64,000 bases of DNA, taken from the IMG/VR virus record IMGVR_UViG_3300009527_000006, positions 1 through 64,000 of that record; one strand, written 5' to 3'. Origin of the DNA: a virus. The notes under the pieces were generated by a model. The model saw nothing but the letters and a program-made list of their open reading frames with translations. It made no database searches and had not been told where the DNA came from. A program made the position numbers and the translations under genes. This document shows positions 2,449-53,913 of the stretch, piece by piece (position 1 is the first letter of the stretch; every line of letters starts with the position of its first letter).

Positions 2449-3474
2449 TTGAAGAAATTTGAATATAAACAATCATTAGAAATGTTCAAATCATTTGATG
2501 CTGATACGAGATTGGTAGTATTAACATCTGGAATTGCTATTATTGATGAAATTTATGACACATTAAATTTAGAATTGAAAAATGAATATGTTTCTCAAGG
2601 ACCGAATTTAACTGAAAACCAAGTAAATGATATTAGTAAAAATAGTAGTCTAAGAAAAAGATATGTTGAAAGACGGGATATTAGTTTTACGCAAATGGTA
2701 AATACTGGTAAATATGAATTTAATAATTTGGATTTAGAAGTAAAATCAATTCAAATTAAAATAGAAGAAGGAAGAAGTAAAGCACAGAAGATAGTAGATA
2801 GTTATTCTGGAGGAAATTTAAATTTAAGATATATGTGGTTAATAGAATTACCTGATATGTCTAAAATAGATGTGACTGGTGATTTTTTGTGCGCATATAA
2901 TGAACTTGCATCGTTGAAAGGTTGTCCTAGAAGTGTTGTTGGAAGTTTTCATTGTAGCAATAATCAATTATCAACATTAGAAGGTTCTCCTAGTAGAGTT
3001 GGAGGTGATTTTTATTGCAATTATAATAAATTAAAAACACTAGAAGGTGCTCCTAGTAGGGTTGGAGGTGATTTTGAGTGCAATTTTAATAATTTAATAA
3101 CATTAGAAGGTGCTCCTAGTAGTGTTGGAAGAGGTTTTTATTGTAATGATAATAAATTAACAACACTACTAGGTGCTCCTAGTAGTGTTGGAGGATTTTT
3201 TAATTGTAAGGTTAATAAATTAACAACACTACTAGGAGCACCTAGTAGTGTTGGAAGAAGTTTCTATTGCAATTATAATAAGCTAATAACATTAGAAGGT
3301 TCTCCTAGTAGTGTTGGAGGAAGTTTTGAGTGTGATACTAATTCTGATTTAATTTCATTAAAAGGTGCTCCGGCAAAAATAGGGGCAAGATTTCTTTACC
3401 CTGATAAATTTACAGAAGAAGACGCTGACACTGCAATGACAGAGCGGAGAAAGCAACTATCTATACAACAGTAG
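2449..3474 (+). CDS. Tandem-repeat (leucine-rich-like) protein
   Basis: A 341-residue protein with a helical N-terminal third and about eight near-identical 20-residue repeats from about residue 155 to 320, of the form F-x-C-x-x-N-x-L-x-x-L-x-G-x-P-x-x-V-G-G. Regular spacing of Leu, Asn and Cys implies a solenoid, as in leucine-rich repeats. The DNA repeats are also nearly identical 60-mers, so copy number may vary by recombination. The first in-frame start is TTG at 2449, with an ATG at 2482 as alternative; neither has a clear ribosome binding site. Likely a binding scaffold; the target is unknown. Confidence 0.65.
   Translation: MKKFEYKQSLEMFKSFDADTRLVVLTSGIAIIDEIYDTLNLELKNEYVSQGPNLTENQVNDISKNSSLRKRYVERRDISFTQMVNTGKYEFNNLDLEVKSIQIKIEEGRSKAQKIVDSYSGGNLNLRYMWLIELPDMSKIDVTGDFLCAYNELASLKGCPRSVVGSFHCSNNQLSTLEGSPSRVGGDFYCNYNKLKTLEGAPSRVGGDFECNFNNLITLEGAPSSVGRGFYCNDNKLTTLLGAPSSVGGFFNCKVNKLTTLLGAPSSVGRSFYCNYNKLITLEGSPSSVGGSFECDTNSDLISLKGAPAKIGARFLYPDKFTEEDADTAMTERRKQLSIQQ
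2930..3345 (+). repeat. Seven to eight tandem 60-bp coding repeats
   Basis: In-frame 60-nt units containing GGTGCTCCTAGTAGTGTTGG-like cores, differing by a few bases. They encode the solenoid of the 2449-3474 protein. Confidence 0.85.
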
Positions 3475-15559: not shown

Positions 15560-18500
15560 TTATTCTATGTTGTTAAGGGTCACTCCGCTACGCTCAATTT
15601 GAAGATTGATTAGGACATGCTTGACGGCACGTATCCATTGCACATAATCTGCGACATTGAGAACACCTCTATCAACCAAATCTGGTGGATTGTTGTCTCT
15701 ATCACACTTAACCAAGAAGTCTGCTAAACCGCCATTATCTTTGACAAATTCAAGAATACTAGAATGGTCATTTTTAAGACTAGTTCTAGTATTAATACTG
15801 TTGGGTTTTCCAACAAATCGTCTAGAAGAAGCAATAAGAGCTTTGCCTACCCATAACATACCTCTACGAATATATTCTTCAGAAAGAGCTGATGTTTCTT
15901 TCTGTAGAGTGTTGCTATCATATACAATATATCCTTCTGGGAATTTTACAATAGAATTGGCACCAGCAATAGATATTAAATCTCGGTCCTTTTGTGAAGG
16001 ATTGATTGCTAAATCAACTACATTGCTAAGTTTTCCATTTTCAATACCAAAGGCAGGAGTCCATGCAAAATTTGTAGAATCATTTCTGCAAAGATTTGCT
16101 GCTACAAATGCTGATGGTCCGTACCATCCAAAACTGTCCGTGCTACTATCATAAGTTTTGATCCAGTTTGCTTCAGTAGAAGCAAAATTAGAATTGATCT
16201 TAGACAGCAGATTTTTGAGAGGCGTGTAGATATTTCTTGAGAAAGTAGAATATCTGTTAGAAGGTTGACCTGTAACAGGATCTAAGACTAACTTTTTCTG
16301 TCTTCCTGAAACTTTATAATCTTTTCCATTGATAAAGATTTGACGAAGTGGATCTAGTTTAACTAATGATCCGGCATCTCCTGCGTTTTTGCGAGTATGC
16401 TGCCCAAAGTTAATTAGAACATTTGCCACTGTTGCCCATGCTTCAGCAATATTGCTGAACATATCTGTTCCATTAAAAGATGCCAAGCTATCAGTATCAA
16501 CAAAATAGGTATCATCGAAATAATAGCACACACTTGGGTCAGTTATACAGTCGTCCGCAACGACAGCTTGACGGGTTGACCATATAGTAGACAGTCCTGC
16601 ATCAACAACAATATCAACTGGGAAATCTAATGGGTTTTCTACGCCCATGAGTGCTCTTTCAAGCTTGAGGGGAAGATTTCCAATATCTTTAGTTTTGCAC
16701 AGTTCAAGGGCAACATCCTTACAATGACTATTATAATTGCCTACTCCATACAGTTTATCGCCATAATTTTTAAGAGCCTGCTGAGTATCAAAATTATCAA
16801 ATACTGTTGCGGTTTTTTCTCTATACATTCTTACAGTTTTTTGCGGAACGCCATCTGCTGAATTCCAACAATTATTTTTAGAAAGGTACGGATTTACAAA
16901 CATCTTAACTTTACGAGAAGCATTTACTGCATCTTCAATAAAGACAGAACGAGGAGCACCGCCATATTCGTCAAATACCTTTCTTCCACTATTAAGACTT
17001 CCTATATATTTTTCTACTAATACAGCATCTAATTTATTGATTGTTTCAGTTAAACGTGAAGGACGTAATTTGAAGAGACTGACTGATAGAGAATCATTAT
17101 ATTCTTTATTAGCAAAATTAGGGCCAGACGTTTTTTCAACTATTTCAGAAATGCTATTACGAGTTCCTTGGAAAGTCTCAGAAACTTTAAAATTCCAACG
17201 ATTTTCAGGAACATCTACCCATTCACCAGTAACTCCGGGGCAAAGAGTATCATAATATCCTGCCACAGCAGTTAAATCATTAAAGTCTGTTGCAGGATTG
17301 ACATTTAAGTTATCATTGACTGCAAGGTAGTATCCGCTAAAATCTTCTAGCTGTGCTGCTTTAATTTTATTGACTACTACGATACCTGCTCTTACATCAT
17401 TTTCAACTACATCCAATTCAGGATCTACGTTTGCAAAAGTTCCGCACTTCCAATTAAATTGACCATTTTCTAATAATTCGTATTCTGCTTCTGATAAACT
17501 TCTCGCTACTGGTTCTCCAATAACATAAAAATTAGCATCATTAAGCTGAGCTTCGCCTTCAAGAGGATAAAAGGTATAACGATCTTTTTCAGGAACTTTT
17601 AATCCAAGTTCTTCTACAGTTTGACAAGAAAGACCTACTACTACAGGTGTAGCACAAAAACTGATAAGGCTGTCTTGAGTAGTAGCTGCTAATGCGGAGA
17701 TTTCAACAGAGAAAGTTTCTCCTATTTGGAAATCTCCTAAAGAAGTCAGTCCAGTGTTGTACGTATTAGCAACAGCAGGATCTGCATCAAAGTATTTCAA
17801 AACACCTCCGTCAGAATATGTCCCAAAAATATCTCCAGCACTAACAGGAATACCTGATAGAGTTTGGCCAGTTAAAAATCCTTCAGTGACAGTGAATGAT
17901 GTAGCATAAGGACTGCTTGCAAGATCTACAATCAATCTCTTACCGTCATTAGACAGATTAGATTGATCTTCATCCATAGTAGCATATACGTTACTAAGTT
18001 CGATATAATTGACTACTTCATATGAAATGTTATCTCCGCTAGTTGTAGGGCGAAGTTGCACAACAACTAATTCTTCTTGAGTAGAGTCAGAATCTACTAC
18101 AAATTTGAATCCTGTCAATATAGAATCATAAGAAACAGGGTGATTATGAACATAAAGAGTATTTCCTACTTCATTTTTAGACGAAAGAGGACAATCTAAA
18201 TTTGCACTTCCATAACACAGAGAAGACTTTTTATAATGAACATTGTATAGCTCAGGAAATTCTGTTCTACAAGTATCCTCGTCAATATCACGGAAATAAT
18301 CACATGCAGATGTTTCTACAGCAGAAACACCGATGATAGGATATACTAATGCAGAATAATTATCAGAATAAGAAAATCCTCCACCAGAGCCGAATGGCAT
18401 ACGTGTGAATAACACGTTGCCCGGAGATGTGGTTAGAATTTGTTTAACTGCATTGTGCGAATATCTAGTAGCAGGACACGTAGGTAAACCGAAAGTTTCC

Positions 18501-18667
18501 TCATACTGTTCCATGTTACTTACGAAAGTTGGTTCTTCGGATGGACCTTGTTCAGTAAATCCTGCGATCAAGACAGTTGTTCCGATAGGAGTAGTAATAA
18601 CCTCAGAATTGTCTGTCTCACGCAGTTCTACCGATGGTGAATAATGTATTGGTAAAAATGTTGCCAT
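15560..18667 (-). CDS. 18: Contractile tail sheath protein (T4 gp18 type)
   Basis: A 1035-residue sheath protein, longer than T4 gp18 (659) because of large inserted beta-rich domains in the first two-thirds. Landmarks are the N-terminal beta hairpin region with PIGTTVLIAGFTEQGP near residue 27, FTRMPFG near 86, and the conserved C-terminal domain (RRGMLWVGKALIASSRRFVG, NTRTSL, and the final SGVTLNN strand) that handshakes with neighbouring subunits. It polymerises around the tail tube and contracts on infection. A late promoter precedes it. Confidence 0.92.
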   Translation of the reverse strand: MATFLPIHYSPSVELRETDNSEVITTPIGTTVLIAGFTEQGPSEEPTFVSNMEQYEETFGLPTCPATRYSHNAVKQILTTSPGNVLFTRMPFGSGGGFSYSDNYSALVYPIIGVSAVETSACDYFRDIDEDTCRTEFPELYNVHYKKSSLCYGSANLDCPLSSKNEVGNTLYVHNHPVSYDSILTGFKFVVDSDSTQEELVVVQLRPTTSGDNISYEVVNYIELSNVYATMDEDQSNLSNDGKRLIVDLASSPYATSFTVTEGFLTGQTLSGIPVSAGDIFGTYSDGGVLKYFDADPAVANTYNTGLTSLGDFQIGETFSVEISALAATTQDSLISFCATPVVVGLSCQTVEELGLKVPEKDRYTFYPLEGEAQLNDANFYVIGEPVARSLSEAEYELLENGQFNWKCGTFANVDPELDVVENDVRAGIVVVNKIKAAQLEDFSGYYLAVNDNLNVNPATDFNDLTAVAGYYDTLCPGVTGEWVDVPENRWNFKVSETFQGTRNSISEIVEKTSGPNFANKEYNDSLSVSLFKLRPSRLTETINKLDAVLVEKYIGSLNSGRKVFDEYGGAPRSVFIEDAVNASRKVKMFVNPYLSKNNCWNSADGVPQKTVRMYREKTATVFDNFDTQQALKNYGDKLYGVGNYNSHCKDVALELCKTKDIGNLPLKLERALMGVENPLDFPVDIVVDAGLSTIWSTRQAVVADDCITDPSVCYYFDDTYFVDTDSLASFNGTDMFSNIAEAWATVANVLINFGQHTRKNAGDAGSLVKLDPLRQIFINGKDYKVSGRQKKLVLDPVTGQPSNRYSTFSRNIYTPLKNLLSKINSNFASTEANWIKTYDSSTDSFGWYGPSAFVAANLCRNDSTNFAWTPAFGIENGKLSNVVDLAINPSQKDRDLISIAGANSIVKFPEGYIVYDSNTLQKETSALSEEYIRRGMLWVGKALIASSRRFVGKPNSINTRTSLKNDHSSILEFVKDNGGLADFLVKCDRDNNPPDLVDRGVLNVADYVQWIRAVKHVLINLQIERSGVTLNNIE

Positions 18668-19642: not shown

Positions 19643-19671
19643 TTTATCATACTTAATTGGTAATTATATAT

Positions 19672-21840
19672 ATGAGTAAAAAGAAGAAAGATGTTTATAT
19701 TAAAAACAATAAAGATTTGCCAGTAGATGTTACTGGTGAATACAATGTAGAAATGATGAGTGAGATGCAGAAATGTAAAGACGATATTTTCTATTTTGCA
19801 GAAAAATATTTTACCATTGTTCATCCAGACAGAGGCAAAGAAATCATGCAACTATATGCACCTCAAAAAAGAGCAATAGATAAGATAGTTAAAAATCGCA
19901 GAACTATTATTTGTGCTTCTCGTCAAATAGGCAAACGACTATGTTTGAATACACCTGTTCCGACTCCTGATGGATGGAGCACTATGGGAGAATTAAGAGA
20001 TGGTGATACTATATTTGATTGGAACGGAGCACCTACTAAAATAGTGAAAGCGCATGATATAGTAGAAAATACGGATGCTTATGAGATAACCTTTAGTAAT
20101 GGAGATAAAATTAAAGCGGATGCAGAACATGAATGGTTTACACAGCACAAATCTGAAACTAAGGCAAAATATTCAGGATCTGTGAAGACTACAAAGGAAA
20201 TATATGAGTCTCTGTATTATGGAATAAAAAATAAACGGCCTGCTCATAGAATCCCTCTACATAAACCAGAAAAATCTAAAAAAAGAAACAAATACGTCTA
20301 CATAAAAAATATAGAAAAAATAGACAGTGTTCCTATGAGATGCATTACTGTAGATAATGATGATCAGATGTATTTAGTAGGAAAAACATGCATACCTACG
20401 CATAATACATCACTGATGACAGTAGTGTGTTTGTGGTATACTCTTTTTAATAAAAATTACAATATTGCTATTCTGGCCAACCAAGAAAAAATGGCTCTTG
20501 AAATTCTATCTAGAATAAAAACTGCATATAAAAATCTTCCCACGTGGTTGAAATCTGGCGTCCCTGTTTGGTCACAAGGTCAAGTAACTTTCTCAAATGA
20601 AAGTAATATATTTGCATCTACTACATCAGAAAACTCTATACGTGGACAGACGACAAATCTAATATTTCTGGACGAGTTTGCATTCGTTCCCCCAGAAATT
20701 GCAGAATCGTTTTATACTGCGGTATCCCCTGCCCTCTCCGCTTCAAAAACCTCAAAAATAGTCATTGTATCTACACCAAATGGAGTCTCTAACAAGTACT
20801 ATGAAATATTCCAAAATGCTGAACGAGGTGATAAAGGTTGGGCATATGAAAAAATGTATTGGTGGGAAATACCGGATCGTGATGAAGCATGGAAAGAGGA
20901 TCAATTGAAATTATTGAATTATGACCGTGATAAATGGGATCAAGAATATGATTTAGTATTTCTAACTTCAGGGTCTACTGCATTGAATAAAAATCTAATG
21001 GATAGATTAGAAAAACAATGCTATATTCCTGATGTAACTTTTGATGACGGAGATTATCTTGTTTACGACACTCCTAAAAAAGGGCATGTATATTCTATAG
21101 GGGTAGACGTGTCTGAAGGAATAGGCCAAGACTATTCAGTTGCGCAAATACTAGACGTTACTGATCCTAAAAACATATCTCAAGTAGGAGTATATTCTAC
21201 AAACAGTTCTCTCCCTTATGTATTTGCAGAGAGGCTTTATCAAATAGCATGTTCATGGGGTAAACCCTTTTTATGCATAGAAAGAAATGGTCCGGGAGGT
21301 CAAGTAATTGATGCATTGAAAAATGTTTATGAGTATGACAATATCGTAACTGCGTCAAAGGTAAATGATTCTTCTGGAAGATATAATAATCAGCTAGGAA
21401 TTGTCAATCATCAGAACACTAAACTTGCAGGAAATAATAATATGAGATACTATCTAGAAACTAAAGAGTGTCTTGAATTATATGATGGCAAAACTGTCGC
21501 TGAATTTAGGACTTATGTAAGAAAGGCGAATCGTTCTTGGGGCGCTCTAAAAGGCAAAACTGATGACCATGTTATGGCTCTTATATGGGGAACATTTATT
21601 TTAGAAAAAACTGTTGCTGAAAAATATTTAGAAATACTTGATATTGATGAAAATGGTAGAGTGGAATCTATTAAAGATCCTATGCAATTTGAAAAAGATA
21701 CTCTTATTGAAAAAATCAAAAGTAATCCTAATTTTCGTATAAAAAATTCCAATTTTCCTACTGCGTTTGTTCAAAGAGGAAATGTTTTTTCTACAGTTGA
21801 TATTCCTACTAATAATGGAAGTATAAAATTTATACTATAA
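19672..21840 (+). CDS. 17: Large terminase subunit (T4 gp17 type) with intein
   Basis: The DNA-packaging motor. The precursor is 722 residues; removing a 157-residue intein leaves about 565 (T4: 610). The N-terminal ATPase has a Walker A (SRQIGK joined after splicing to TSLM) and Walker B LIFLDEFAF (Asp334, Glu335). The C-terminal nuclease has GVDVSEGIGQDYS with the first catalytic Asp (about 479) and a late DDHVMALIWG. The ATG at 19672 is preferred to an earlier in-frame ATG at 19657 because gp17-like proteins begin with a basic stretch such as MSKKKKD. Without splicing, Walker A would be destroyed. Confidence 0.93.
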   Translation: MSKKKKDVYIKNNKDLPVDVTGEYNVEMMSEMQKCKDDIFYFAEKYFTIVHPDRGKEIMQLYAPQKRAIDKIVKNRRTIICASRQIGKRLCLNTPVPTPDGWSTMGELRDGDTIFDWNGAPTKIVKAHDIVENTDAYEITFSNGDKIKADAEHEWFTQHKSETKAKYSGSVKTTKEIYESLYYGIKNKRPAHRIPLHKPEKSKKRNKYVYIKNIEKIDSVPMRCITVDNDDQMYLVGKTCIPTHNTSLMTVVCLWYTLFNKNYNIAILANQEKMALEILSRIKTAYKNLPTWLKSGVPVWSQGQVTFSNESNIFASTTSENSIRGQTTNLIFLDEFAFVPPEIAESFYTAVSPALSASKTSKIVIVSTPNGVSNKYYEIFQNAERGDKGWAYEKMYWWEIPDRDEAWKEDQLKLLNYDRDKWDQEYDLVFLTSGSTALNKNLMDRLEKQCYIPDVTFDDGDYLVYDTPKKGHVYSIGVDVSEGIGQDYSVAQILDVTDPKNISQVGVYSTNSSLPYVFAERLYQIACSWGKPFLCIERNGPGGQVIDALKNVYEYDNIVTASKVNDSSGRYNNQLGIVNHQNTKLAGNNNMRYYLETKECLELYDGKTVAEFRTYVRKANRSWGALKGKTDDHVMALIWGTFILEKTVAEKYLEILDIDENGRVESIKDPMQFEKDTLIEKIKSNPNFRIKNSNFPTAFVQRGNVFSTVDIPTNNGSIKFIL
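19936..20406 (+). other. Class 3 mini-intein in the terminase Walker A loop
   Basis: A 157-residue in-frame insertion between GK and T of the Walker A motif. Block A starts RLCLNTPVPTPDGW, so residue 1 is Arg rather than Cys or Ser. The class 3 signature is complete: Trp67 after the block B His65 (AEHEW), Cys136 in block F (MRCITVD), and Thr155 before the terminal His156-Asn157; the +1 extein residue is Thr. There is no homing endonuclease domain. Cutting exactly here restores SRQIGKTSLM, matching T4-like terminases. Confidence 0.9.
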
Positions 21841-50086: not shown

Positions 50087-50257
50087 ATGAATGAATCTAC
50101 GTTAGTTGATTGCGCTAAATGGTTATATGAAAAGCAGCAAGAGAACCTAAAAGCCGGAAAGAATCTACTTTGGCAGCCACATATAATAACCGTTCTTTTA
50201 AACTTACAAAAATCTAAAGTCATACTTTTAAGATATAAACTCTCGATTTTTTGTTAA
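50087..50257 (+). pseudogene. Cassette 6 gene, probably interrupted by the IS607-like element
   Basis: Begins 23 nt after R' of site 6 with the A/C-rich leader typical of the array (CACCACAATG). Residues 1-45 read as a normal helical protein (STLVDCAKWLYEKQQENLKA); the frame then runs into the end of tnpB and stops after 56 codons. The simplest view is that a cassette gene was cut by insertion near 50,215-50,225; its 3' part may be the fragment at 54156-54350. Confidence 0.5.
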
Positions 50258-51446
50258 ATTCCTGCTTCACAGACGGGCTAACCAAAGTCGTTTCCGACAA
50301 TGGTGAACTCCCATCTCCACAGGCTTGAATTCCCGAAGAACTTTCGGTATAAATTTGTTTCAGATTCAAACTCGCATTTAAATCTCTATCTATTTTCATA
50401 TCACACATTTTACATTCAAATACTCGGTCTGTCAACTTCAAATCTGAATTTTTCCATCCGCAACATGAACATAATTTAGAACTGGCGTAGAAAGTATCTG
50501 CGAAGACAACTTTTCTATTATTCCATTTCGCTTTATATTCAATTTGGCGACGAAATTCATAAAGTCCTACGTCACTGATAGCCTGAGCCAAACAGTGATT
50601 TTTCAACATATTGCTTACTTTCAAATCTTCCAACACAATTACATTGTTTTTCTGTATTATGTTAGAAGTGATTCTATGTAAGCAATCTTTACGAATATTT
50701 GATATGTGATAATGTAATTTTGCTAACTTTTGTTTTGCTTTTCCATAATTTTTACTTCCTTTTTTCTTTCTTGATAATTGTTTTTGTTTGCGTTTTAGTC
50801 TCTTGAGATTTTTCTTTAATGCTTTTGGATTTTCATAAGTTGTCCCATCTGAGCAAGTAGCTAAAGTTTTAATACCTAAATCAATTCCTACTACCTCATT
50901 CTTGGCGTTAGAATGCTCTCTGTCAGGTGTCTCTACTTGAACTGATACAAACCACTTACCCGCACGTTTCGAGACTGTAGCAGACAGTATTTTACAATCT
51001 GTTGGGATGTAATCTTTCTCGGATAATTTGAGTTTGTCGATTCGTGGTAGCTTAATGTAATCAGATTCAACTGAAATCGCGCCGTCTAGTCTGAAGGATT
51101 GCTTTTCGTTTTTCTTAGATTTAAATTTTGGAAATCCTTTCTTACCTTTAACTTTCTTTTTACAACGAGTGAAGAAATTTTGAAATGCTTTATCACAATC
51201 TCTTAACGCATTTTGTGGAGAAGTCTTGCTTGAATTATACATCCAAGGAACATCTGTCTGTTTTAGCTTGTTTAATTCTCTATGAATCTCAATAGCATTT
51301 TGAATTTTCTCTTTCTTATCAAATTGTTCTTTCTTTTTAGCTAATGCCCAATTATATGCCCATCTAGCGCAACCAATATGCTGTAATAACAAGGTTTGTT
51401 GCTTGTTATTTACATCTAGCTGAACTTTATAGGCGCGGAGAATCAT
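50220..51446 (-). CDS. tnpB: TnpB RNA-guided nuclease-type transposon protein
   Basis: A 408-residue TnpB. The start at 51446 (MILRAYKVQLD) matches the usual family start; the codons upstream belong to the methyltransferase overlap. RuvC residues are intact: Asp189 (GIDLGIKTLAT), Glu273 (VLEDLKV) and Asp355 (DRDLNASLNL). A zinc ribbon (CSCCGWKN ... FECKMC) lies between the last two. TnpB proteins cut DNA with a guide RNA made from the 3' end of their gene, so such an RNA is expected across roughly 50,200-50,400. Its ATG overlaps the methyltransferase stop (ATGA). Confidence 0.9.
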   Translation of the reverse strand: MILRAYKVQLDVNNKQQTLLLQHIGCARWAYNWALAKKKEQFDKKEKIQNAIEIHRELNKLKQTDVPWMYNSSKTSPQNALRDCDKAFQNFFTRCKKKVKGKKGFPKFKSKKNEKQSFRLDGAISVESDYIKLPRIDKLKLSEKDYIPTDCKILSATVSKRAGKWFVSVQVETPDREHSNAKNEVVGIDLGIKTLATCSDGTTYENPKALKKNLKRLKRKQKQLSRKKKGSKNYGKAKQKLAKLHYHISNIRKDCLHRITSNIIQKNNVIVLEDLKVSNMLKNHCLAQAISDVGLYEFRRQIEYKAKWNNRKVVFADTFYASSKLCSCCGWKNSDLKLTDRVFECKMCDMKIDRDLNASLNLKQIYTESSSGIQACGDGSSPLSETTLVSPSVKQEFNKKSRVYILKV

Positions 51447-52308
51447 TTTAATCTTTCTAAACAAATATCATAATACTCTTTTTCTTTTTCGATGCCGATA
51501 AACTGACGATTGAGATTTTTGGCGGCAACCAGAGTTGTTCCCGAACCAGCAAAAGGATCGAACACCAAATCCTCTTTATTTGAGATAGACTTCACCAAGT
51601 CTTCCATCATATTCAACGGTTTTTCACATGGATGTTTGTCTTTTCTTTGCGAGACTATTTCATATTCAATTACATCTTCAAATGAAGATAGCGATAACGA
51701 ATCAAATTTTCGTTTGGATAATTTAATACCTAAATCTCCTCTAATTTGGGAAGAAATTTTGGAGATGGAAAGCATCTACCACATTCCCAATTTGATACTT
51801 GACCACCATTATTAACGTTTCCATAAGCACCCAATATTTCAGTAAGCTCTTTTACCGATACCCCCTTAGAAATGCGGGCATTCTTAATGTCATTTGGATA
51901 AGAATCTTGTGAAAAATAAATTATTCTTTCTGATGCTGGATATGGTCGTCTAAGGGAATTTTTATTACACTTATTTTTCCAACCCTCACTCCCCTTATTT
52001 GGAAAAGTTTTCTTCCACACAATTTCAGATTGGAAATTGAAATATTGATTTATCAGGACGGCTAAAAATGGAGCCAATGATGGCTTACAAAAAACGTAAC
52101 CACTACAAGTATTTTTCATCTTCGGTTTAAGAATTTTGAAAAAATAATCAAACCATTTTAAAAATTCAGTATCGTTATCATGTTCATTGTCCCAAGTGTG
52201 CTTTTTAACATTGTGATAAGGTGGATCGGTGACAAGGATATCCACGCTTCCATCTGGAATGTCCTTCATCAATTCTAAACAGTCGCCATGCCAAATTTCT
52301 TGTTTCAT
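51443..52308 (-). pseudogene. DNA methyltransferase (beta class), broken by a one-base frameshift
   Basis: The N-terminal frame (52308-51730) has GDCLELMKDIPDGSVDILV then TDPPYHN (residues 27-33), a target-recognition region and an HTH-like insert (KELTEILGAYGNVNN). The C-terminal frame (to 51443) has HPCEKP and FDPFAGSGTTLVAAKNL. Motif IV before motif I marks the beta class of N6-adenine or N4-cytosine enzymes. The frames join at LEEI/LGIKL, near 51,731-51,740, where one extra T in a T3 run restores a continuous protein. Either a real mutation or a homopolymer error. Confidence 0.8.
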
Positions 52309-53336
52309 TCCATCGCCTCCTTTTCTTTCTTTTTACGATTCTGTGAGCTAATCATACCCAATCCTTCTCTAATTAGATACAGGCGACCAGTCGAAGTTTT
52401 TAACTCTTTTGCTACGCCTCTCCAAGTTTGATGTTTATCAAACAAATCGTGCAGTTGTTTTACTGTAATATCTGAACGCTTTTTCCGTAAAATTTGCTGA
52501 GATAGACACTCTAAATATAATTCATACTTTCTATCCAAATACACTTTAGCGTTTGAGTATATTGGTCTTAATATGTTTTGAACTAACTCGACCCCCGCCG
52601 AAGATATGCAGCAAGTTTCTGAATCTCCCTCTCCATATTTTGATAGGATTTTTGCGCGACATTTGCTATACGAAAGAATATACTCTTGAAATTTCTCAAT
52701 AACAAGCCTATTTCCAACAAGATTAATTGTCCACACCCAAGATTTTTTATATTTGGGTTCAAGCGTTTTAGAAATGCAGCCATCACCGTCAAATATGCCT
52801 CGCCAAAAATGACAGTGTAAATCCTTTGGAATTAAATTTAACGGAGGAATAAAGCTAAAAGATTTTCTCGGTAAAATACCAAATTTAGCCAAATCATTGC
52901 ATATTTTTCTGTTACCAATTACAATTCGACACGACTCAAATATTTTACTATTATCACCCCCTTCAAAAGAGGGCGAACTTCTACATATTTTAATTGGATG
53001 CGCCGAACGGCAAAATTTCTTAAATTTTTCTAAGTGCAACAAATCTGACTTTTTTAAACCTATATTCAATCCTCCATAATCGGTTACGTTGCCGTCGGCG
53101 GCAATGAATCCAAGCCAATAAGCCTTATCTTCTGTGTCAATTTTTTCAAAAATAGAATCGTCAATAGTATATTTAGAGTTATTTTTAATTTTGATACCCC
53201 TTTTTTTGGCTTCTCTGGTGCAGCATTCGCTACTTAATCCGTAAACAGCCGCCGCCCTTTGTGCAGAATCCCCGTTTACATATAGATTAATCATTCCGTC
53301 CTTTTCTTCTTGTGTAATAGTGCGTCTCATATACAT
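52305..53336 (-). CDS. LAGLIDADG homing endonuclease
   Basis: A 343-residue protein with two LAGLIDADG helices: WLGFIAADG (residues 74-82) and FWRGIFDGDG (177-186), each ending in the catalytic Asp. The N-terminal 50 residues (RRTITQEEKDGMINLYVNG) and C-terminal 50 (VKQLHDLFDKHQTWRGVAKELK) look like HTH DNA-binding units. It would make a staggered cut at a long target. It overlaps the methyltransferase start by 4 nt and lies 16 nt after the recombinase stop. ATG at codon 3 is an alternative start. Confidence 0.88.
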   Translation of the reverse strand: MYMRRTITQEEKDGMINLYVNGDSAQRAAAVYGLSSECCTREAKKRGIKIKNNSKYTIDDSIFEKIDTEDKAYWLGFIAADGNVTDYGGLNIGLKKSDLLHLEKFKKFCRSAHPIKICRSSPSFEGGDNSKIFESCRIVIGNRKICNDLAKFGILPRKSFSFIPPLNLIPKDLHCHFWRGIFDGDGCISKTLEPKYKKSWVWTINLVGNRLVIEKFQEYILSYSKCRAKILSKYGEGDSETCCISSAGVELVQNILRPIYSNAKVYLDRKYELYLECLSQQILRKKRSDITVKQLHDLFDKHQTWRGVAKELKTSTGRLYLIREGLGMISSQNRKKKEKEAME

Positions 53337-53352
53337 ATATTTACACTAAAAA

Positions 53353-53913
53353 TCACTCTTTTTCACAAAAATCTGATAAAACTTCATCATCGGGATAGAT
53401 TTCTGTAGTCACCTCTTCCACCTTTTCAATTCTAACTCCATAGGAATTAAAATAAGACAAAAGATAATTAAAACAAAATCTTGATAATCTATCTTTATGC
53501 TCAATTAAGACTACATCAATTTCTTTCTTTTCTACTAACTCAAAAAGTTTCTGCAATTTCTTGCGATTGTCGTTCATTCCTGAACCAACTTCATCAAAAA
53601 CAGCAACAATAGAATAACCACGCTTCAATGCCTCTGTAGTCATTCTGCCGACTTGTCTTTCTAAATCACCTTTAGTCTTCTGTTCATGTGAACTAACGCG
53701 ACAATAGATAGCCACACGCTTACCATCTGTTACTTTAACAGGTTCTACATAGATTCCCGCCAATTTCTCAATATCGGCTCTGTAATAGCGTCTATGACCA
53801 CCTTTTGTATGGAATGGCGTTAATTTGCCTTCTCGCTCCCAATTTCTAAGAGTTTCGTCGGAAACGCCTAAAATGGACGCAGCATCACTAATTGATAGAA
53901 TCTTTTTATCCAT
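53353..53913 (-). CDS. tnpA: IS607-type serine recombinase (TnpA) with MerR HTH
   Basis: A 186-residue protein. Residues 5-50 form a MerR-like helix-turn-helix (SISDAASILGVSDETLRNWE, HRRYYRAD). The resolvase domain has AIYCRVSSHEQ with catalytic Ser74 (or 75), VFDEVGSGMNDNRKKLQKL and IEHKDRLSRF. It should cut and rejoin circular transposon DNA. The C terminus ends shortly after the RLSRF block and seems to lack the final helix of many relatives, next to the inserted endonuclease gene, so activity is not certain. Confidence 0.85.
   Translation of the reverse strand: MDKKILSISDAASILGVSDETLRNWEREGKLTPFHTKGGHRRYYRADIEKLAGIYVEPVKVTDGKRVAIYCRVSSHEQKTKGDLERQVGRMTTEALKRGYSIVAVFDEVGSGMNDNRKKLQKLFELVEKKEIDVVLIEHKDRLSRFCFNYLLSYFNSYGVRIEKVEEVTTEIYPDDEVLSDFCEKE

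Follow-up and report, generated by a model that had tools for sequence, protein, structure and literature searches.

The large terminase subunit gene (terL) in the viral DNA analysed here very probably carries a cis-splicing class 3 intein, located at the classic P-loop site of T4-type phage TerL proteins and descended from a full-length LAGLIDADG intein through an in-frame deletion of the nuclease. The window, i.e. the whole stretch of 64,000 nucleotides under study, comprises positions 1 to 64,000 of a viral IMG/VR record of 92,025 bp (IMGVR_UViG_3300009527_000006).

Terminase gene, intein boundaries, and class assignment

The terL precursor (Table 1), for which an in-frame TTG at position 19657 offers an alternative start adding five residues, matched Terminase_6N of Pfam (E = 1.1e-12) as well as phrog_36964 (E = 4e-64) and phrog_2 (E = 2.5e-39) of PHROG. 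Genes coding for tail sheath, tail tube, major head, UvsX-like, PolB, and DnaB-like proteins were retrieved around it; the setting is therefore that of a contractile-tailed phage. Sheath homology of the tail sheath protein (15560 - 18667, minus strand; 1035 residues) was confined to the last ~210 residues, the first 800 residues being without a family match. Elsewhere in the window, an ORF (2449 - 3474) contained a 63-bp tandem repeat in six and a half copies (2918 - 3327).

Table 1. Positions of the terminase gene, its intein, and the residues discussed (window numbering; conservation refers to the 61 aligned class 3 inteins)
Feature	Position	Strand	Remarks
terL precursor (T4 gp17-type terminase large subunit)	19672..21837	+	722 residues from ATG; stop 21838-21840
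N-extein	19672..19935	+	88 residues; ends with first part of Walker A (SRQIGK); empty-site relatives aligned
Class 3 mini-intein	19936..20406	+	157 residues, Arg1 to Asn157
Arg1, non-nucleophilic first residue	19936..19938	+	Ala in 52/61; Arg also in L017
Cys3	19942..19944	+	Unique to the window intein among 61
Ala48	20077..20079	+	Cys in 57/61
Block B His65 (B:10) and Trp67 (B:12)	20128..20136	+	Both invariant (61/61)
Linker (~residues 108-117), probable deletion scar at the LAGLIDADG position of relatives	20257..20286	+	~183 residues shorter than L017
Block F Cys136 (F:4), predicted initiating nucleophile	20341..20343	+	Invariant (61/61); role from PMC5222942
Cys152	20389..20391	+	Shared with three others of 61
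Block G Thr155-His156-Asn157	20398..20406	+	Thr and Asn invariant; penultimate His in 53/61
C-extein	20407..21837	+	477 residues; first residue is the P-loop Thr, predicted +1 nucleophile

The intein forms an in-frame insert of 471 bp between the codon for Lys88 and that for the P-loop threonine. Its translation (RLCLNTPVPTP...IPTHN) is in one frame with the preceding ASRQIGK and the following TSLMTVV, and the reading frame of 722 codons contains no stop, insert included. A preliminary description of this DNA had placed an intein of 157 residues at this Lys-Thr junction of Walker A (19936 - 20406), which proved exact, and had called for a search of related terminases for the empty site. Such sites were indeed found (e.g. 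L184, L178, L181, and L199), and taking out the insert restores the Walker A motif SRQIGK-T/S of these intein-free relatives.

The signature residues were compared among 61 distinct, aligned inteins that had been collected by similarity to this class 3 intein family. Position 1 is variable among them (Ala in 52, Arg in two, other residues in the remainder). In the window intein, His156 and Asn157 are followed by Thr+1, i.e. both the C-terminal asparagine and the Ser or Thr at +1 are present, the latter being given together with the class 3 signature in PMC5222942; the signature is also described in PMC7891396. The residues read before (no Cys or Ser at position 1, Trp67, Cys136, Thr155, and a terminal His-Asn followed by Thr+1) were all recovered, residue 1 being Arg, and, as described before, no LAGLIDADG or other endonuclease motif was found inside the 157 residues. 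Position 13 of block F is occupied by Gln144 instead of His, a histidine that is also missing in most relatives; neither this residue nor Ala48 figured in the preliminary description.

Among solved structures, the best phmmer matches of the intein were the class 3 mycobacterial DnaB inteins (6rix and 6riy, E = 1.7e-25 and 8e-25; 6bs8, E = 1e-24), which aligned without gaps from residue 2 to residue 79 and again over the C-terminal 36 - 37 residues. Similarly, an AlphaFold model built with 30 aligned relatives (pLDDT 88.1, pTM 0.83) had 6riy, 6rix, and 6bs8 as its best PDB matches (Z 20.5 - 20.8; rmsd 1.2 - 1.5 Å over 127 - 130 residues, with 1.4 Å at Z 20.8), followed by gp41-1 (Z 17.2) and other inteins, with Z values of at most 17.2 for class 1 inteins. 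A HINT fold is supported in that these best matches are all inteins. In addition, residue 1 and the final asparagine of the model superpose on those of 6rix, and both junctions are therefore fixed. Signature residues, phmmer matches, and predicted fold thus all agree with the class 3 mini-intein proposed in the preliminary description, an assignment borne out by each of the testable criteria of sequence and fold. The Pfam and NCBIfam intein models scored below their cut-offs, so that standard annotation would miss the intein and list a terminase with an unexplained insert of 157 residues.

Nearest relatives, probable loss of the nuclease, and homing

A search for relatives with the precursor alone yielded one locus and family profiles were needed for more; the profile search of IMG/VR retrieved dozens more inteins at the Lys-Thr site of terminases. 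In the nearest relative, L017, SRQIGK is followed by an Arg1 intein of 340 residues (RLHVDTPVPSPNGW...) and then by Thr. This intein contains an intact LAGLIDADG nuclease (blocks LFGYWLGDG and LLQGLMDSDG), and its splicing domain is 67% identical to that of the window intein. The window, L017, and L015/L016 formed one clade in the intein tree (support 96/98) and, together with L029, one clade in the terminase tree (SH-aLRT 100); topology tests of alternative intein clades gave p-AU values of 0.24 - 0.49. The window intein retains the pre-nuclease segment of its relatives (GSVKTTKEIYESL...HRIPL) and picks up again at RNKYVYIKN. Because the nearest relative carries, at this site, an intein that likewise begins with Arg1 and has an intact nuclease, the window copy is most likely the nuclease-deleted descendant of a full-length intein, the nuclease having been deleted in place. 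As the exteins of the window are only ~50% identical to those of its nearest relatives, this deletion is deduced from L017 rather than seen between near-identical genomes. The earlier proposal, by which an intein of this kind could only be passed on vertically or be moved in trans, was hence too narrow, as it omitted arrival with an own LAGLIDADG nuclease, of the type present in L017, followed by its loss in place. Short inteins also occur within the clade of the window, as a second such form, in L015/L016 (Pro1 mini-inteins of 148 residues), and elsewhere in the wider clade, by a separate nuclease loss, in L013 (151 residues).

Several terminases displayed further inserts or deviating residues. 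The terminase of L015/L016 holds two inteins, namely the class 3 mini-intein, here at a Lys-Ser junction, and a second, class 1-like insert in the region of the ISTP coupling motif, which starts with Cys1 and ends with His-Gln before Thr. The class 3 inteins of L030/L180 and L215, at the same site, have Ser instead of His as the penultimate residue (PTSN). In the terminase of L058/L002, a class 3 intein is present, and a second insert, with Cys1, begins behind SIRGDTLN, where the contig ends. L143 uses another intein site: close to where the nuclease domain of its terminase ends, DDLVM is followed by a long insert that begins with Cys and has His-Asn as its last residues, before Cys.

A search with the C-extein only, which is blind to the intein, retrieved 80 loci, 69 of which had a readable site. 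Sixty of these sites were scored empty and seven were occupied, all seven by nuclease-bearing inteins; L220 was empty but cut by the contig end, and L226 was intein-free with an altered P-loop. The empty L184 and the occupied L017 share 95% extein identity and 94% DNA identity in the flanks, and differ by an insert of exactly 1020 bp. Similarly, the empty L176 shares 93% extein identity with L029. Furthermore, the intein DNA of L044 and L049 is 99.7% identical over 1041 bp, whereas the flanks are 91.6% and 80.7% identical. The terminase-intein family homes horizontally, and has done so recently, since near-identical phages with empty sites occur and since inteins that are 99.7% identical reside in terminases that are 81 - 92% identical. 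Intein and extein identities, compared for the pairs that include the window, revealed no outlier, and hence no evidence of a recent move by the window copy itself, which would no longer be able to home by itself. Such patchiness and horizontal movement are in line with a selfish element, and the window intein most likely belongs, with nothing unusual as to its kind, to a widespread family of mobile elements, its DNA-cutting part having been lost. Rare, as the preliminary description put it, applies insofar as the class is uncommon; it is nevertheless well populated, a 2020 survey having counted 1701 class 3 inteins in nr, 82.5% of them with LAGLIDADG (PMC7891396).

Proposed splicing, position 48, and alternative readings

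The window copy would be expected to splice, most likely by the class 3 route. In line with its family, the His65/Thr155 arrangement would activate Cys136 for attack on the bond between Lys(-1) and Arg1, after which the N-extein would move via a thioester to Thr+1, Asn157 would cyclise, and an acyl shift would produce a seamless terminase with SRQIGKT restored; its 565 residues (722 minus 157) equal the mature length calculated before. With the P-loop split before splicing, unspliced TerL should be inactive as an ATPase, by analogy with published cases: inactivation by a split P-loop until splicing was argued in PMC5050341, and the P-loop intein analogy was cited in PMC6195587. Since the insert separates GK from T, packaging should depend on splicing.

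It is unlikely that this dependence has made the nuclease-free intein a domesticated control element, kept because splicing gates packaging in response to a redox or other signal. The P-loop site, the three cysteines in the splicing domain (positions 3, 136, and 152), and the redox-paused splicing known from the class 3 intein Msm DnaBi1 (PMC6195587) would suit such a role. However, most of the close relatives lack an intein (60 empty and seven occupied among the 69 readable sites), the full-length forms home actively, Cys48, the only redox partner known for class 3, is missing, and nothing points to regulation, so that a control function, considered possible in the preliminary description, finds no support.

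Only at position 48 does the finding depart from the ordinary. Under oxidation, Cys48 of Msm DnaBi1 and the catalytic cysteine become linked by a disulfide, and all seven substitutions made at Cys48 (C48A/S/T/M/E/D/H) abolished splicing (PMC6195587). That study termed Cys48 non-conserved, whereas it was near-universal in the present set (57/61). The window intein, with Ala48, lacks the cysteine for a redox disulfide of the Msm DnaBi1 type with the block F cysteine. Because Ala48 replaces a cysteine that is immutable in Msm DnaBi1, the window intein could be slow or impaired in splicing. Carried further, this would mean a decayed intein that lost splicing after loss of the nuclease, in a dead or weakly functional terminase gene or phage, for which the near-universality of Cys48 and the fatal outcome of every substitution in Msm DnaBi1 may be adduced. 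Such decay is quite improbable, given the fully open frame of 722 codons, the retention of all catalytic residues of blocks B, F, and G, and the essential nature of TerL, which should make decay lethal. It is further opposed by the TerL of RaK2 (L005), whose class 3 intein, likewise located at this site, contains Met48. As RaK2 is a cultured phage, Cys48 is probably not needed in every member, and its loss is probably tolerated. An equally doubtful reading is that the intein splices without Cys48 through a rewired core, in which Cys3 and/or Cys152 would take over its structural or redox role as a relocated cysteine switch gating DNA packaging. The Ala48 intein is nevertheless a naturally occurring variant with which to test whether other class 3 inteins can do without Cys48, which was reported to be indispensable in one of them.

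Mobilisation of the mini-intein in trans by a nuclease of the same phage is very unlikely. A free-standing LAGLIDADG gene, the only one found in the record, is indeed present (P0003; 52305 - 53336, minus strand; PF14528, 26.8 bits; phrog_4645, E = 2e-50), but its product did not significantly resemble the nucleases of the terminase inteins (best E = 0.24). It lies 32 kb from terL within a serine-recombinase/TnpB module, whereas in the collaborative homing described the nuclease gene adjoins its intron (PMC10448857). Neither GIY-YIG nor HNH_3 nucleases, nor a second intein of the class 3 terminase kind, were found in the 92-kb record. The block around the LAGLIDADG gene (50220 - 53913, minus strand) resembles a mobile element, apparently of the IS607 type with cargo, and further encodes a MerR/serine recombinase (53353 - 53913), TnpB/OrfB (50220 - 51464), and a DNA methylase that is apparently broken, as it is split into two pieces that overlap (51730 - 52308 and 51443 - 51775) and match the N- and C-terminal parts of N6_N4_Mtase.

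Lastly, class 1 splicing from Cys3, with Arg-Leu belonging to the extein, is hardly credible: a cysteine does sit two residues from the predicted start, but the mature P-loop would read GKRLTS and destroy Walker A, the sister intein of L017 has His at that position (RLHVDT), the register of the empty sites contradicts it, and class 3 inteins align without gaps from residue 2, the fold pairing residue 1 with residue 1 of 6rix.

Comparison with known inteins

The preferred reading, a class 3 intein that has lost its nuclease, places the window copy in a kind that is already known, as class 3 inteins occur at this site in many phage terminases and a terminase intein at the P-loop Lys-Thr junction has been published. 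Msm DnaBi1 (6bs8) and Mch DnaB1 (6rix/6riy) share with it the class 3 signature, the numbering through block B (His65 and Trp67), the fold, and the lack of a nuclease, and DnaBi1 is likewise inserted in a P-loop. However, the host protein of these mycobacterial inteins is a helicase instead of a terminase, their identity to the window intein is ~40%, and Msm DnaBi1 has Cys48, in contrast with the Ala48, Cys3, and Cys152 of the window intein. The mycobacteriophage TerL1-a inteins (PMC5050341) reside in another terminase family (TerL1). The TerL inteins of four cultured phages of the T4 type, namely Synechococcus phage B23, Escherichia phage FL15, Klebsiella phage RaK2, and Alishewanella phage Slicko01, belong to class 3 and occupy the Lys-Thr junction too, but they start with Ala1, comprise 330 - 342 residues with LAGLIDADG, and their terminases are ~29 - 33% identical to that of the window when aligned. 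Conversely, the TerL mini-inteins of Ackermannviridae (Kuja, Salmonella phage vB_CECAV_050, and Klebsiella phage P01), with 159 - 173 residues, are nuclease-free and located at the same junction but belong to class 1 (Cys1, no block F cysteine). Terminase clade and insertion site are shared with L017 and L015/L016 of IMG/VR; of these, L017 also has Arg1 but is full-length with a nuclease, and the Pro1 inteins of L015/L016 lie in a TerL with a second, class 1-like intein. The window intein leaves the general knowledge of terminase inteins unchanged, but adds a clear late stage of the homing cycle, as empty sites, full-length nuclease-bearing class 3 inteins, and probable nuclease-deleted remnants occur at the same codon junction within one terminase clade.
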